Of a DNA stretch of 24,291 nt, positions 608-16,644 are shown piece after piece. How positions within the stretch are numbered: position 1 is the stretch's first letter; every line of letters begins with the position of its first letter. Below the pieces are notes generated by a model. The model worked only from the letters and a program-made list of their open reading frames with translations, was not told the DNA's origin and searched no databases. The stretch is from IMG/VR virus record IMGVR_UViG_3300033155_000018, positions 1 to 24,291 of that record; one strand, given 5' to 3'. Source of the stretch: a virus. The position numbers and the translations under genes are program-made.

Positions 608-2242
608 TTATTTTAGACTATCTAATTTGTTTAAAATAGTTGCAAATCCGCTTGATGAAAGTACAGAACCTTCTTTAACAACGTCAGCACCATTGTAGCC
701 CATTCTGTCTTCTTGACCAGCAATGACTGGGATAGTTGTTTGTCCTGTTGACTTCTGTTTGTTAATTCCACCTGAGATAACTTTAGTCATAAAGTCAATG
801 TCTTGTTCAAATGATGTTTCAGTACCGTTCTTGCCTGCATCATTAGCCCATTCGTCAACTTTTTCTTTTTCATCTTTAGAATCATCTTTATCTTTAGAAT
901 CATCTTTTTTATCAGGATAGATATCCTTGAGATTTTTAGCAGTAATTTTTTTGCCTGAATCATCTTTTAGTTTATTAAACCATTTTTCTTCATCTTCTGC
1001 TACTTTGAATTCTCTTTGATCATCAGTTTGCATTTCAGTGATTTCTTCGTTCTCACCATCGTTTATAGAGTCCTTAGGGGCATCCTCTGCGCCTTCTTTA
1101 GTTAAAAGTCTCTCATCATCATGTTGTGATAATGGCTGAGTAGGTTCTTCTGAAGTTTCTGCACCTACTTCTGCTAATAAGTCTAAAGTTCTAAGATTTT
1201 CTTCTAAAGAAACGTGTCTGTCTTCTTTATCTCTCTTACCGAACTTACCATATGAATCATCTCTGCGATCTTTCATACTTTGTTTCTTATCAGATTCTTT
1301 ACCTTTACGCATACCTAATGACTCATCTTCTTCGTCATCATAGCCTTGCTTTTCGTCTAACTGAGCAAGTTCGTCTAACTGAGATAAAGTTTCTTCTAAA
1401 GATTTTTCTCTATGTTCTTCATCTCTCTTACCGAACTTACCATATCTTTCATCTCTACGGTCTTTCATTGACTGCTTCTTGTCAGACTCTTTACCGTCTT
1501 TCATGCCTAATGACTCATCTTCTTTGTCATCATAGCCTTGACCTTCTTCCATATGGTGCTCATCTTTCCAGTCATCGTATTCTAAATCTTTAACGATGTC
1601 TTCACCATCTCTTCCTGGGTGCTTACGACCGTCGTACTTTGCGTGTCGTGCAACTTCTTTACCTGCACGTTCTGCATGATCGTCTCTTTCAGCATCAGAT
1701 TCTTCGTCAATGCCTTTTTTAGCAACTGTAGATGCGTCCCAATCATACTTGTCGTATATTCCTGCATCTTTTTCTTGTTCTTCTAATGAAACATCTCTGT
1801 GTTCTTCGTCACGTTTACCGAACTTACCGTAAGAGTCGTCTCTACGATCTTTCATTGATTGTTTTTTGTCAGACTCTTTGCCTGTACGCATGCCTAATGA
1901 CTCGTCTTCTTCGTCATCGTAGCCTTGCTTTTCTTCTAAATGTCCACCGTGTCTATGACCGAAGTCTCCACGTGAATCATCTCTGCGATCAGCATAAGAT
2001 TGTTTCTTGCTAGATTCTTTGCCGTCTTTCATGCCGAGTTGTTCGTCTTCTCTATCGTTATAGCCTTGATCTTCGTATGCTTTGTCTCCACAGCCTTCTT
2101 CCATGCTATGTCCGCCACCGCATTCGTCACATGATTCTTCGTCTACATCGACTACAACACCTGGTGCTTCTACTTCGTCTTCGTAATCACCGTCTACGTC
2201 TACAATACCCATTAACTTGAGCATGTCATCGTGTGAACTCAT
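608..2242 (-). CDS. Acidic repeat-rich conserved phage protein, C-terminal half of a probably split gene
   Basis: This 544-residue, highly charged, presumably largely disordered protein has no assigned function. Four copies of a ~40-44-residue repeat lie at about residues 59-97, 106-149, 235-278 and 299-342, with cores such as ESLGMRTGKES, KKQSMKDRRD and YGKFGKR. The motif YDKYDWDASTVAKKGIDE (about 163-180) recurs in the preceding ORF. C38, C41 and C51 form a possible CxxC metal site. A Lys/Asp-rich run is followed by a more ordered C-terminus (DIDFMTKVISGGINKQK). I recognise the family from marine T4-like phages. The ATG at 2242 has no good ribosome binding site. The frame stays open for 36 coding-looking codons upstream, back to 2350, where it meets the end of the preceding ORF. 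The likely reading is one gene of about 1115 codons broken by a one-base deletion. The product may be a virion component. Confidence 0.7.
   Translation of the reverse strand: MSSHDDMLKLMGIVDVDGDYEDEVEAPGVVVDVDEESCDECGGGHSMEEGCGDKAYEDQGYNDREDEQLGMKDGKESSKKQSYADRRDDSRGDFGHRHGGHLEEKQGYDDEEDESLGMRTGKESDKKQSMKDRRDDSYGKFGKRDEEHRDVSLEEQEKDAGIYDKYDWDASTVAKKGIDEESDAERDDHAERAGKEVARHAKYDGRKHPGRDGEDIVKDLEYDDWKDEHHMEEGQGYDDKEDESLGMKDGKESDKKQSMKDRRDERYGKFGKRDEEHREKSLEETLSQLDELAQLDEKQGYDDEEDESLGMRKGKESDKKQSMKDRRDDSYGKFGKRDKEDRHVSLEENLRTLDLLAEVGAETSEEPTQPLSQHDDERLLTKEGAEDAPKDSINDGENEEITEMQTDDQREFKVAEDEEKWFNKLKDDSGKKITAKNLKDIYPDKKDDSKDKDDSKDEKEKVDEWANDAGKNGTETSFEQDIDFMTKVISGGINKQKSTGQTTIPVIAGQEDRMGYNGADVVKEGSVLSSSGFATILNKLDSLK
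1217..2068 (-). repeat. Four in-protein repeats of about 120-130 bases
   Basis: The repeats encode a charged unit that begins QGYDD..DESLGM and ends YGKFGKRD..HR. Copies lie at 1952-2068, 1796-1927, 1409-1540 and 1217-1348. Copies 2 to 4 are nearly identical in protein; copy 1 has diverged (QSYADRRDDSRGDFGHR). Copies 1 and 2 are almost adjacent. Copies 2 and 3 are separated by a spacer holding the YDKYDWDA motif. DNA-level identity is lower than protein identity, which points to selection on the protein rather than recent duplication. Confidence 0.85.
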
Positions 2243-7982: not shown

Positions 7983-10900
7983 TTAAGATCCTGATAACTC
8001 ACCAGTGTTGAATATTCTGACCGGAACGTAGATAAACTCAGCGGCTTTCACGGGCTCTACTGCTATGTCAATCCAAAGTTCATTTCGATCAATTCTTGCT
8101 GGAGTGTTGTTAGAATCATCACAGACTACTGAGTAGTCATATAATCCTCGTTTTGAAACTAGATCCTGGAACAATGTTTCTACTACTGCTTTAATAGACT
8201 TTCTTGTTTGAGGGTCATTAGGTTCAAAGACAAATGGTCTTGCGGCTAATATTAATTGTCTACGTATGTAAGCAACTAATCTTGCTACGTTTACTCTGTC
8301 TAATGCAGATGATGAATCAAATGAAGTTTTGTTACCATAGTTCAATAATCCATTACCTGTAAAGAATACCATTGGGTTAATAAAGTTAGTGTATAACACA
8401 TCTCTAATACCAATACGTGTTCTGATTGAGTTAAATTCGCCTTCTGCATCAATGTAACCAATGCTTGTAGCATTATCGATTATACCACGTCTAGTACCTG
8501 CTGGTGCTAACCAAGGATAAGCAATATTGTCATTACGTAACATAGTTCTTGTCATCATGTGTGATGATGGAACAGCAACTAAGTTACCTGATAGATCACT
8601 AGTGATACCTGATGGATAGAATAGACCCATGTAAGTATTTCTAGTTACAAGTCCATCTTCTCCTGTTGTTACTGCACCTGCGGCGTTAGTTGCCCAAGCC
8701 TGAATATCAGTTGCATCATCTTTCAGTCTCATTGGTGTATCACCGACGATGTAAGAAGTTTCACCTCTATCAGAGTTCAATGCTACCATGTTAGGCTGTA
8801 GTTCAGGATAACCTGGAGTTGCTTGTAAGTTGAAGAAGTTATCTTCATCTCTAATTGCAACGTTAGAGTCTATTGCTGAACGTAATGCTTGTGTTACCAT
8901 TGCTCTCTGTGCTTTACGACCTGCGTACATTGCGCCGTCAGACTGATCGCCTGAAGCAGATACCCATGCATCTTTCTGTACTGGTAAAGAAGCAGACGGG
9001 AATCTATCACTGTTAAAGTAGTTTACACGATACTGTTTAACGTTGTATGAAGAACGTCTTGTGTTCCAAAGCAACATACCTTGTGGATAGTTTGCTGATA
9101 AAGGAGCATCAATATCTAAGTAATCACTTGCTAACAATGACTTGATACTTGGTACTGGGTCATTTGCTGGATTAGTTGTGCCGTTAGTTGCCCAACGTGC
9201 ATCTTTAAATAAAATACCTTGTGGTGTAGTTTGATCAGAGTTGTCGATTAAGACCCACTTATCAGTAGCACTACCGCCACCTGTTGCTGGTACTGATTGC
9301 CATCTATAGAGTAACGGATAGTTCTCTAAGTCAGCAGTACTTAACCAAAGATCACCGTATACTAGTGCTGTGCCGTCACTTTGAAGTGTAGGCTCACTAG
9401 CAGATACAATTGGTCCTGCTGGATCAGTTGCATTTACGACTGATGGGCTAGGTAATCCGTTTGCATCATAACCTTGTGACTTATAGCCTTTCCAATTACC
9501 GTCATAGTTGATCATAATGTCTACTTGATCAGTTGATGAATAGTACCAGTTAGTAAAGTTAGTTGGTATTGCAGTTGGAGCGCCTTCATTTGCTGTTAAT
9601 GAATTTGCACCTGAAGTTGTTAATGAGAATTCTTTCCAGTTAGATAACTGAGTTGTGAATGCATTTGCACCTGATCCTGAAGACCATGTGTAAGATGTAA
9701 CAACACCTGCTGTAACACTTGATACTGTAACAACTAAGTCATTTGCTGGAGAAGCACCACCTAAGTCTGTACCTAAGAAAGTAACTCTATCTCCTACTGC
9801 GTGACCACTACCACCAGAAACTACTGCATCTGGATCAAAGTCATAATAACCGTAGTCATTAGTTACTTTAATTTGTAAAGCAGTACCTGCTCCTGTTGTA
9901 GCACTTTGAGTTGTTGTAAATTCGATGTCATCTCTAAATGGTCCATTTTTACATCCTGCTGTAGCAGTTGTAAATCCTGCTTGTGAGAATAAACCAGATG
10001 AAACTCCTGTTGCGTTATCAAAGTCGTCTAAGATTATAACACCACCTGATGTGTGTTGTAATTGAATAGAACCGTCATCGTTTACACTTGCTGAAGTGTA
10101 AGGAATGTTTGCCGCTGACCATGCAGTTACAAAGTCAGATGCATCAGTGTTATCGCCTAAGTTAAACGGATAAGGGCTACTTAAAGTCTGTGAGCCAGGA
10201 GTTGAAATTTGAACTCTTGCTACATATGGTCCTGATGTAAAGTCTGGTGCAGTGTTTGTACCGTTGATTACTGTTGCCCCAGTGCCTGCTCTGTAGTAAT
10301 AATATACTGGTGCCGCACCATACTCGCCATTGTAGCCGTATTGTGCATAAACAGAACCTGCCGCTATTGCTTGTCCACCTGTTGAATCTGCTGAATAGAT
10401 TTGAGACCAATCAGAAGTTGCAAAAGTTGGAGTCTTAGTAGTGTAAGATGCTGATGTTGAATCATATTCAGCAATTACTGGTTGTAATCCAGTTCCGTCA
10501 ACCTTAACCCATACAGAACCAGTTGGTGCGGGTTCTGCTTGACCTGATTGCCATAATGGCTGTTGAGCAGATGTACCGTATAATGCTCTTGGCTGGAAGC
10601 CAGTTACATTAGTTCCTGTAAATCCTAAGTCTGTAAAGATAGTACCTGTTGCGTTAGCAAGTCTAATGTAGAATGGTGACTCAGGTGAACCTTGATCTCC
10701 ACCTGTCTGAGCAGAGTAGATTTCAAGTTTCTGATCGATAACTGCGGCTGAAATCCAACCCCAGTTAAGAGCATTAATGTCTGCCGCTAACTGAGATACA
10801 GTGTTATTTGGAGCCGCTGATACTGTTAACTGAACTACGTTAGTACCGTTGACAACTAAATCAATAGTATCACCTTGTGTTAATGTAGGATTAGATGTAG

Positions 10901-11591
10901 GACAAGTGATAGTCGGCCATGCCTTAAACCAATCGTCTGAATCTAAACCAACCCAAACGTTAGAACGATTCTTGTACCAATATGTTGGTGCATTATCATT
11001 GTTTGGATCTCTGTAATTAGGAATTGCAACTACTGCATAGTCACCAATATTTCCTACTGATTGTAGAGGTGTACCAATTGACACTAAAGTAGAGTCAGAG
11101 ATAACGATTGGTGTTTTTGCTGTAAATGCGCCTGTTGTTTCGTTAAACTCATTGATTCCCCATGTAGAAGAAGTTGTGTTTAACCAGAAAGAACCATCTT
11201 GTGGAGCTCCTGTAGGTCTAGTTGTCGAACCAACTAAACTGGCTAAGTCAATATCTGCTCTTAAACAGAAAACTTGATTTGAAATACCAAGTGCAGAATA
11301 AGCCGCTAATAATCCATATTCATTTAACTCATAGCCTTGTAACGGAGTACCGTTTGATGCTGTGTAAAAGAATGGGTTACCATATAAAGTAACAAGATCA
11401 CGTTGAGAAGTGATTCTGTATAATTTACCTGCATTCGCGGCTGTTGTTGCGGCCGCTGTGCCTGTTGATGTTGGATCCGCTTTATCTTGTGCTGTTGCTA
11501 ACAAGAAGAAGGGGATTGATGCTGTTGCGCCTGGTAAGTATTGACTTTCATCAATGATGCTTACTTCTACGCCTGGTGATGTTAGTGCCAT
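7983..11591 (-). CDS. gp18: Tail sheath protein gp18, unusually large
   Basis: This is the contractile sheath subunit that surrounds the gp19 tube. The N-terminus MALTSPGVEVSIIDES and the segment around LYGNPFFYTASNG, LNEYGLLAAYSALG and NQVFCLRADID match phage sheath proteins. The C-terminal core (about 870-1202) contains GRKAQRAMVTQALRSAI, IRTRIGIRDVLYTNFINPM, LVAYIRRQLILAARPFVFE and the terminal RIDRNELWIDIAVEPVKAAE. T4 gp18 has 659 residues; this has 1202. The additional sequence lies between about 116 and 830 and is beta-rich, Gly/Thr/Ser-rich material. It has three similar modules around GSFWLN (133-138), GSVWVK (358-363) and GDLWLS (746-751). This insert should project outward from the sheath. 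Start: ATG with an AAAGGAA ribosome binding site. A structured leader precedes it, and a weak late-promoter-like TTAAATAG lies 55-62 bases upstream. Confidence 0.92.
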   Translation of the reverse strand: MALTSPGVEVSIIDESQYLPGATASIPFFLLATAQDKADPTSTGTAAATTAANAGKLYRITSQRDLVTLYGNPFFYTASNGTPLQGYELNEYGLLAAYSALGISNQVFCLRADIDLASLVGSTTRPTGAPQDGSFWLNTTSSTWGINEFNETTGAFTAKTPIVISDSTLVSIGTPLQSVGNIGDYAVVAIPNYRDPNNDNAPTYWYKNRSNVWVGLDSDDWFKAWPTITCPTSNPTLTQGDTIDLVVNGTNVVQLTVSAAPNNTVSQLAADINALNWGWISAAVIDQKLEIYSAQTGGDQGSPESPFYIRLANATGTIFTDLGFTGTNVTGFQPRALYGTSAQQPLWQSGQAEPAPTGSVWVKVDGTGLQPVIAEYDSTSASYTTKTPTFATSDWSQIYSADSTGGQAIAAGSVYAQYGYNGEYGAAPVYYYYRAGTGATVINGTNTAPDFTSGPYVARVQISTPGSQTLSSPYPFNLGDNTDASDFVTAWSAANIPYTSASVNDDGSIQLQHTSGGVIILDDFDNATGVSSGLFSQAGFTTATAGCKNGPFRDDIEFTTTQSATTGAGTALQIKVTNDYGYYDFDPDAVVSGGSGHAVGDRVTFLGTDLGGASPANDLVVTVSSVTAGVVTSYTWSSGSGANAFTTQLSNWKEFSLTTSGANSLTANEGAPTAIPTNFTNWYYSSTDQVDIMINYDGNWKGYKSQGYDANGLPSPSVVNATDPAGPIVSASEPTLQSDGTALVYGDLWLSTADLENYPLLYRWQSVPATGGGSATDKWVLIDNSDQTTPQGILFKDARWATNGTTNPANDPVPSIKSLLASDYLDIDAPLSANYPQGMLLWNTRRSSYNVKQYRVNYFNSDRFPSASLPVQKDAWVSASGDQSDGAMYAGRKAQRAMVTQALRSAIDSNVAIRDEDNFFNLQATPGYPELQPNMVALNSDRGETSYIVGDTPMRLKDDATDIQAWATNAAGAVTTGEDGLVTRNTYMGLFYPSGITSDLSGNLVAVPSSHMMTRTMLRNDNIAYPWLAPAGTRRGIIDNATSIGYIDAEGEFNSIRTRIGIRDVLYTNFINPMVFFTGNGLLNYGNKTSFDSSSALDRVNVARLVAYIRRQLILAARPFVFEPNDPQTRKSIKAVVETLFQDLVSKRGLYDYSVVCDDSNNTPARIDRNELWIDIAVEPVKAAEFIYVPVRIFNTGELSGS

Positions 11592-11606
11592 AATAATATT
11601 CCTTTT

Positions 11607-11646
11607 GTATGATTTTGAGGGTTACACCCTGATTGTTTTTTCATAC
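11607..11646 (-). promoter_or_regulatory. Nested inverted repeat in the gp18 leader
   Basis: On the minus strand GTATGA pairs with TCATAC across 40 bases. Inside it is a tight AGGGT/ACCCT hairpin with a three-base loop. The structure ends just before the AAAGGAA ribosome binding site of gp18. It could stabilise the message or control access to the ribosome binding site. Confidence 0.45.
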
Positions 11647-11687
11647 TATTTAATTATATTAAGAACGGCAAGCGCCATTACAGAAGT

Positions 11688-11948
11688 ATGTGCAATCAAT
11701 GTGGTAAGCAACAAAAAAGAAAAAAGCCTGTTTATCTTTGGCAGAAAGCAGGATACGAAAAAGATACTAATTGTTTTCTATGCGGATTTAAAAGTTTATA
11801 CTCTACGCAAATGACTGTTTATCATATTGATGGCAAGCCACAGAACACAGATTTTAAAAATTTAAGAACGATATGCTTAAATTGCATTGAAGTTGTAAAA
11901 AGAAAACATGTCGTATGGCACAGGGGAGATTTAACTGTTGACTATTAA
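11688..11948 (+). CDS. HNH-like zinc-binding protein, probably 5'-truncated
   Basis: The 86 residues from the first ATG resemble a short phage HNH-endonuclease family. Cys pairs lie at MCNQC and CFLC; HIDGKPQNTDFKNLRTIC matches the HNH core (H..G...N..NL..LC); a final C..C-type pair (TICLNC) and the closing WHRGDLTVDY follow. The usual His after the last Cys is replaced by Ile. The frame is open upstream to 11619 with no start, and those codons encode NYIKNGKRHYRS (11652-11687), which belongs to the conserved N-terminal part of the family. The first Cys pair and the normal start are missing. The gene therefore looks truncated where it abuts the divergent gp18 leader. No good ribosome binding site or promoter is visible. 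Its 3' end overlaps the dNMP kinase gene tail to tail by 18 bases. A homing-type origin is possible. Confidence 0.6.
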   Translation: MCNQCGKQQKRKKPVYLWQKAGYEKDTNCFLCGFKSLYSTQMTVYHIDGKPQNTDFKNLRTICLNCIEVVKRKHVVWHRGDLTVDY

Positions 11949-12551
11949 CTCCATATGTTTATGTAAGTCATCAATTGTCCCGTTGTTGTCAACTTGAAAA
12001 TCATAATCTAATCCAACACTACTATACTCACTAGCATGAACTCCTAGATCAGTCAGTCTTGCTAATGCTTGAGGATTTTGATAATAATTATAATCGACTG
12101 CATCGTTTAACCAAGTAGGTTGTTCTCCTCGATTGACTCTAAGTGTAGTTCCACCTGCATTCTTAATTGCTTCTACTTCATTTTTAAATCTGCAATCAGT
12201 AATGACTACGTTATCTTCTATTTTACGTAATTGATTTTCAATAGATGACACCCAGATATCATTATGAAATGATCGTCTGCCTACTTCAGTTCCCCAATAC
12301 TGTAATACCCAACGAGGAGTGAGATGAGGCATGTCTAATCGTTTTGCCCACCATTCATCAACTTCTTCTCGCCACTCTCTACTAGATTGGGTCGTTCCTT
12401 CTAACATTTCTCTATCCCATCCAAAGATAGCAGACACACAGTCCTTTAAAGGGCCTGCATAACTGAGTTTTCTAAAACCATGAAATCTAATAAGGTAGTC
12501 GGCCGCAGTGTCTTTGCCACTGCTGATAAGTCCTGTAATACCTATAATCAT
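11931..12551 (-). CDS. gp1: Deoxynucleoside monophosphate kinase (T4 gp1-like)
   Basis: This P-loop kinase phosphorylates dNMPs to dNDPs for phage DNA synthesis. The Walker A motif is GLISSGKDT (residues 7-15), with the GKDT form typical of T4 gp1 and related phage dNMP kinases. Further family features are the LKDCVSAIFGWDREMLEG region, the lid-like helical stretch around PRWVLQYWGTEVGRRSF, and VVITDCRFKNEVEAI (about residues 116-130), which resembles the Walker B-like strand and following helix. At 206 residues it is somewhat shorter than T4 gp1 (241). It has a CAGGA ribosome binding site and its own strong sigma70-type promoter, unlike the virion genes around it, so early or middle expression is likely. 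Confidence 0.87.
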   Translation of the reverse strand: MIIGITGLISSGKDTAADYLIRFHGFRKLSYAGPLKDCVSAIFGWDREMLEGTTQSSREWREEVDEWWAKRLDMPHLTPRWVLQYWGTEVGRRSFHNDIWVSSIENQLRKIEDNVVITDCRFKNEVEAIKNAGGTTLRVNRGEQPTWLNDAVDYNYYQNPQALARLTDLGVHASEYSSVGLDYDFQVDNNGTIDDLHKHMELIVNS

Positions 12552-16636: not shown

Positions 16637-16644
16637 GATAAATA
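16637..16644 (+). promoter_or_regulatory. T4-type late promoter element GATAAATA very close to the ATG
   Basis: GATAAATA ends five bases before the ATG of the gp14-like gene. T4 late transcripts start a few bases after this element, so transcription from it would give a message with almost no leader. The nearest ribosome-binding-like AAGG lies 16 bases before the ATG, inside or upstream of the element. Confidence 0.5.

Follow-up and report, generated by a model that had tools for sequence, protein, structure and literature searches.

The HNH-like open reading frame that lies between a tail sheath gene and a nucleotide kinase gene in this virus record (the window, 24,291 bases) is very probably what is left, the 3′ five-sixths, of an HNH-endonuclease-like gene resident here, a single illegitimate deletion of some 119 bp having taken its 5′ end. 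This reading, a young pseudogene, is the best supported because the frame has no promoter, no start codon and one half of a putative zinc ribbon. The deletion takes a palindrome, the promoter, the start and a metal-binding motif together, while its joint restores the core of a presumed tail sheath promoter; the case would show how an HNH gene wedged among phage genes can be silenced without harm to its neighbour.

Architecture of the locus and the missing 5′ end

The tail sheath gene, gp18 (7983–11591, minus strand; phrog_10581, E 1.7e-207), is preceded by a 5′ leader that comparison with relatives places at 11592–11650 (minus strand) and that is common to the close ones. The phages heading its match list (first 15 of 2,581 records) are jumbo phages, and Sinorhizobium phage Phosso, Agrobacterium phage Atu_ph07 and Pseudomonas phage PA5oct are found among these 15 at 44–47% identity. 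On the other side lies a deoxynucleoside monophosphate kinase gene (dNMPk; 11931–12551, minus strand; phrog_139, E 5.6e-50), which is convergent with the HNH-like gene, the two 3′ ends overlapping by 18 nt. From the open reading frame and its relatives, the remaining coding part of the HNH-like gene consists of 97 codons and a stop (11655–11948, plus strand). Counted from the ATG at 11688 to the stop at 11946–11948 the open reading frame has 86 aa; the frame is open back to 11619, and this ATG is an internal Met. Translation of 11580–11948 in this frame gives C*CHNNIPFV*F*GLHPDCFFILFNYIKNGKRHYRSMCNQCGK...; going upstream, the first stop encountered is the TGA at 11616–11618 (plus strand). A first-pass annotation had stated that no start codon lies between this TGA and 11688 and that the gene adjoins the gp18 leader. 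Both statements are borne out: the codons of 11619–11687 include no ATG, GTG or TTG, and the only conceivable rare starts among them are ATA 11643, CTA 11646 and ATT 11658.

Relatives were collected by scanning viral contigs with the 97 codons from 11655 (136 confirmed stretches, 80 loci kept) and then with the kinase and with two family alignments (80 loci kept from each longer list), giving 320 loci, many of them from the same contigs. In the first 80 loci the stretch from the Tyr codon at 11655 is conserved at 61–88% identity over residues 1–97 (1–96 in one locus), and gp18 and the kinase flank the HNH gene as in the window in 77; the other three lack gp18 (L029, L062) or the kinase (L068), each near the end of the locus. 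The HNH gene is present in 315 of the 320 loci. The order gp18(−)/HNH(+)/dNMPk(−) holds in 297 of these, one neighbour was not found in the other 18 (15 near a contig end, 3 with no detected kinase), and no different arrangement around the gene was seen among the 315. One of the five loci that lack the gene, L103, is cut by a contig end, and in L149, L158, L159 and L160 gp18 and the kinase adjoin directly. No gene is annotated at the gp18/kinase junction of Serratia phage BF or of PA5oct, and other genes occupy it in Atu_ph07 and Phosso. The HNH gene is thus dispensable, since junctions without it exist. In one locus (L030, 5475–6289) the kinase and the following gene are partly present twice, possibly an assembly duplication.

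About 119 bp net are missing from the window when it is set against close relatives that share its gene order: the distance from the gp18 ATG to the Tyr codon is 64 nt, as opposed to 182–183 nt in the relatives. Alignment with seven of them (L001, L006, L007, L010, L011, L014 and L017) opens a single clean gap, and the leader to the left of this gap is identical to that of six of the seven, L014 differing by one base (by eye). The missing segment comprises the relatives' gp18 late box (TATTTAT on the plus strand), a palindrome of the CCTTYRAAGG type (CCTTCGAAGG), the late box of the HNH gene itself (TATAAATA or CATAAATA, 5 nt ahead of the ATG in the aligned relatives), and the ATG together with about 18 codons, which include the first CxxC of the putative zinc ribbon. 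In the relatives the frame runs upstream into M..RPICxxCNxx.CAVN or a variant of it; in L001 the residues ahead of NYIKNG read M-S-L-P-R-P-I-C-K-I-C-N-R-K-V-C-A-V-N.

These comparisons bear on what the first-pass annotation had proposed for the 5′ end. Its suggestion that recombination removed the 5′ end is upheld, in that relatives carry about 119 bp absent here and have a matching leader on the left side of the joint; conservation extends to the residues upstream of the first ATG, so the claim of a lost start stands. The upstream residues NYIKNGKRHYRS do belong to the family sequence, as proposed, but they do not form the family N-terminus: relatives start at ATG (a few at GTG or TTG) 15–23 residues earlier, and NYIKNG lies that far inside the intact protein (M..RPxCxxCN..AVNY). 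The same distance argues against the proposed rare start at ATT 11658, and the promoter box that preceded the relatives' start is gone. An upstream indel hiding the start is excluded because only 59 bp separate the joint from the gp18 start, all of them gp18 leader. A frameshift or internal stop concealing the N-terminus was likewise rejected, no N-terminal remnant being found in these 59 bp.

The part of the protein that was lost holds conserved residues. In an alignment of 26 full-length members, picked for diversity from 60 representatives, R5, C8 and C11 are invariant (26/26) and are absent from the window, and C32 and C35, the partner pair in the apparent ribbon, are likewise invariant. 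C8/C11 and C32/C35 together look like a zinc ribbon, which would bind the metal. Residues D78, N88, C59, C62, C93 and C96 are invariant and H76 nearly so in the same alignment, and the window keeps all of them. The assignment to the HNH group rests on weak but repeated matches and on these conserved motif residues. Pfam HNH (PF01844), HNH_3 (PF13392) and PHROG HNH families match weakly over the stretch YHIDG..N...NLRTICLNC, the window protein scoring 17.7/19.3 bits against PF01844 (curated cut-off 21.4) and 14.0/14.7 bits against PF13392 (curated cut-off 24.8), below the cut-off in both cases. HNH_3 was matched by 12 of the 26 members and HNH by 5 (E 0.01), and one PHROG HNH family by 18 (E 0.001). 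Unlike Pfam HNH, the window protein has no evident third His of the triad (by eye). The best solved relative by profile is Legionella IcmJ/DotN (PDB 5x1h, 5x42; E 1.4e-4, profile positions 42–98), a type IV secretion protein that shares with the family only the HNH-like core. An AlphaFold2 model is of fair confidence (mean pLDDT 84, pTM 0.56), and a Foldseek search found no significant solved fold (best E 0.35).

The deletion joint and the gp18 leader

Alignment with relatives places the joint at 11650–11651, with an ambiguity of about 1 nt. To its left CATACTATT (11642–11650) is the relatives' leader, to its right TTAATTATATT (11650–11660) is the HNH coding strand of L007, and the two halves have about one base in common. 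Across the joint a TAAATA core is re-formed on the minus strand (11652–11647), 55 nt before the gp18 ATG by hand count, and we presume it to be the gp18 late promoter: TAAATA stands 25–83 nt before the gp18 ATG in all 168 distinct gp18 upstream regions. The deletion thus seems to rebuild the promoter of its neighbour. The 8-mer that reads across the joint on the gp18 strand, ATTAAATA, is absent from the gp18 boxes of the 168 distinct upstream regions, and we count this against the re-formed promoter having full strength; ATTAAATA or other TTAAATA forms do occur at the HNH boxes of relatives.

Several features of the leader are of interest in themselves. On the minus strand of close relatives of the L001 type, an ATG lying 5 nt after the gp18 late box opens a short frame that runs into the gp18 start (by eye); the shifted box of the window would remove this frame. 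A hairpin search of the leader found a 5-bp stem, AGGGT-GTA-ACCCT (11618–11630, minus strand), whose pairing is kept in relatives while its letters change, the forms being AGGGT-GTA-ACCCT (17), AGGT-GGTAA-ACCT (27), AGGG-CGTTAA-CCCT (10) and AGGTT-GTA-AACCT (9). Some hairpin, not always of one kind, is present in 104 of 168 distinct gp18 leaders, and 64 have none by this test. Read on the plus strand, 11618–11630 scored as a terminator-like hairpin (1 found, 0.2 expected). We do not favour this reading, since many relatives lack the T-run (by eye) while the stem persists in the gp18 leader; it may still hold for the window itself.

Rarity of start loss and the standing of other readings

The loci yield 194 distinct HNH sequences by the shorter key (195 under an earlier one), three of which are cut by contig ends (L062, L082, L091), leaving 191 informative relatives. 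A start codon precedes the CxxC in 187 of these; by a strict motif 184 start at most 12 codons before it, and L275, L294 and L299, which fail this motif, are classed as having an ATG with CxxC. In three others (L151, L193, L226) a GIY-YIG-like domain, with Pfam matches of E 4e-4 to 7e-3 that fall below the cut-off, is fused ahead of the HNH protein; in L151 and L193 a palindrome lies between the late box and the new ATG. The last of the 191, L044, is without promoter and ATG because of another deletion, of 36 bp, which has its left end within the palindrome. Losing the start is therefore rare, with one case among the 191 in addition to the window; the two losses are independent, and in both, box and start go together.

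Both cases carry a caution about assembly. A 25-mer across the window's joint has no match in other records, and a 21-mer matches 2 viral and 19 genome stretches, none with a window protein nearby (the window's own record being left out of both searches), so the deletion rests on one assembled contig, which is the chief doubt about it. L044 is likewise a single contig, of 5,069 bp; its alignment to L045 falls into two main parts (99.0% over 3,799 columns, 100% over 744), and the contig should be read with care because a further length difference of about 105 bp within gp18 suggests that it may be unreliable. It is accordingly conceivable, though we think it quite unlikely, that the 119 bp are present in the phage and were dropped from this contig in assembly or amplification. 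The joint has been seen once, and the second case of start loss comes from the L044 contig, but a collapsed repeat is ruled out by the near-absence of any repeat at the joint (about 1 nt in common), and both sides of it match one group of relatives (L001–L018, 84–91% in gp18 and 86–98% in dNMPk).

The remaining codons look constrained. Comparing the 97 codons of the window with those of nine relatives gives dN/dS of 0.05–0.12 (one pair saturated), inside the range of 0.02–0.19 among the intact pairs listed; of the changes seen in the window alone, 4 are silent and 2 non-silent. Either the loss was recent, then, or a short protein still works. The latter would call for translation from an internal start, at ATG 11688 or at ATT 11658 or ATA 11643, with the HNH part and its CxxC pair retained. 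The low dN/dS agrees with this, as do the intact HNH motif with its four Cys and a slightly better Pfam HNH match when the upstream stretch is left off (19.3 rather than 17.7 bits). However, none of the informative relatives uses such a start or begins at the Met equivalent to 11688, so that here too the claim of a lost start holds; no late-type TAAATA occurs on the plus strand from 11000 to 12000; sigma-70-like sites in 11500–12000 do not exceed chance (1 found, 2.1 expected); and the first half of the zinc ribbon is absent. A functional shortened gene is therefore very improbable. A gain of the longer N-terminus by the relatives, with a window lineage that was always short, can be dismissed almost entirely: gene-free junctions do exist in other phages and nothing else speaks for it, while the N-terminal CxxC occurs in distant members as well (37–49% identical to L001) and the window keeps the codons N-Y-I-K-N-G right up to the joint.

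In the young-pseudogene reading, an HNH gene would have settled between gp18 and the dNMP kinase, and one illegitimate deletion would then have removed about 119 bp with the palindrome, the HNH late box, the ATG and the codons for M..RPxCxxCN... The joint would have re-created a TAAATA core for gp18, and the deletion may have been tolerated because gp18 kept a usable promoter. The window's copy, promoterless, startless and with half a zinc ribbon, would no longer be transcribed or translated as a working protein.

The intact gene: late box, palindrome and homing

The T4 late promoter is described as an 8-bp TATA box about one helical turn ahead of the RNA start (PMC2988020). The box of the intact relatives resembles a promoter of this type (TATAAATA-like), and of 65 distinct upstream regions 62 have a TAA[AG]TA core 4–6 nt ahead of the start codon, a figure that leans upward because the script favoured starts having a late-type box; in part of a sister clade the box is further upstream. 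With the box 4–6 nt from the start codon, the 5′ end of the HNH RNA would fall at or next to the AUG, giving a leaderless message. The arrangement is wider than this gene: 11 records taken together have 201 instances of TAAATA-N4/5-ATG and 66 of the reversed pattern, though some matches are not gene starts and two of the records, G001 and G002, are closely related. Little or no excess is seen in G005 (20 vs 15) and G008 (4 vs 4); in most related phage records boxes 5 nt ahead of an ATG are over-represented. In the window, late-type boxes exactly 5 nt before an ATG are found at 16637 (plus strand), 20020 (plus) and 5119 (minus), ahead of open reading frames of 504 aa (virion structural protein), 138 aa (nudix) and 161 aa, which are probably leaderless late genes.

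Of 124 distinct late-box upstream regions, 89 have the palindrome CCTTYRAAGG ahead of the HNH box. Followed by TAAATA, it is found a single time in 10 of 11 records, always just before the HNH gene; alone, it has one copy in 9 of the 11, three in G005 and none in G007. It is not strictly single-copy: the window has a copy, CCTTTAAAGG (12443–12452), inside the kinase gene, and a second copy in the kinase is also found in L005, L014, L015 and L016 among the first 80 loci. Variants may keep the symmetry (L236, GGCTTCGAAGCC; L161, CCTTTGCAAAGG; L155, GCCCTTAAATTAAGGGC) or lose it (L219, CCTTCGAAGA), and in the sister clade L242–L321 two direct repeats of the AAAAGGGC kind (AAAAGG) replace the palindrome. 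Of 12 records, 8 have a single such pair of repeats, each time immediately upstream of the HNH gene, and 4 have no match. A role for the palindrome as part of the target site finds no support in the four gene-free junctions (L149, L158–L160), all of which lack it, an absence of little weight since L158–L160 are near a clade whose gene-bearing members (L153–L157) lack it too. Regulation of many genes through the palindrome is not supported, with one copy in 9 of 11 records.

The simplest reading is that the palindrome is a candidate operator for the gene's own product. I-TevI is reported to be an autorepressor with an operator at its own late promoter (PMC2988022); as in that account, the site here lies beside the gene's own late promoter, but unlike that of I-TevI the candidate site is the dyad CCTTYRAAGG, or direct repeats AAAAGG(GC) in the sister clade, and in the window it is deleted. 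We infer that the intact gene is a late, leaderless and probably self-regulated HNH gene of the homing-endonuclease type. The free-standing HNH homing endonuclease genes mobA–mobE of T4-like phages, the intron-encoded I-TevIII and the family described here all are small HNH genes amid phage genes, and the family shares with them a presumed late-type promoter. Degraded copies are also known among the T4 HNH genes: I-TevIII of T4 is described as inactive through a large deletion (PMC2988022) and mobA as "apparently defective" (PMC3014915). PMC2988022 makes the point that deletions are disfavoured by embedded host promoters, and the restoration of TAAATA for gp18 by the present deletion is in keeping with it. 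In contrast to the T4 genes, the family here occupies one position in hundreds of phage loci, on the strand opposite to both neighbours and with its promoter box 4–6 nt from the start codon.

Homing by the family is plausible in view of the gene-free junctions, the HNH motif, the late promoter box and the GIY-YIG-like domain fused in three relatives. Recent mobility is not supported: all 15 records examined have one strong HNH copy each (weaker relatives occur elsewhere in 4), and HNH distances follow kinase distances over 178 distinct loci (Mantel r 0.69, a value reached in 0 of 999 permutations; 0.41 when only close pairs are taken).

A bolder proposal, which we regard as unlikely, combines these elements. 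The family, as a leaderless late HNH gene, would repress itself by way of the zinc ribbon at the near-single-copy palindrome beside its own promoter; its own nicking near this operator would lead to 5′ deletions, and the window and L044 would each carry a loss of this self-inflicted kind, which would survive only if gp18 still had a late promoter. The window's deletion spans the palindrome, and the breakpoint in L044 lies inside it. What binds a near-single-copy palindrome just before an HNH gene is the question posed by the intact family, and this context is of more interest than the HNH remnant.

Elsewhere in the window, a very acidic open reading frame of 544 aa (608–2242, minus strand) contains repeated blocks resembling YDDEEDESLGMRTGKESDKKQSMKDRRDD.
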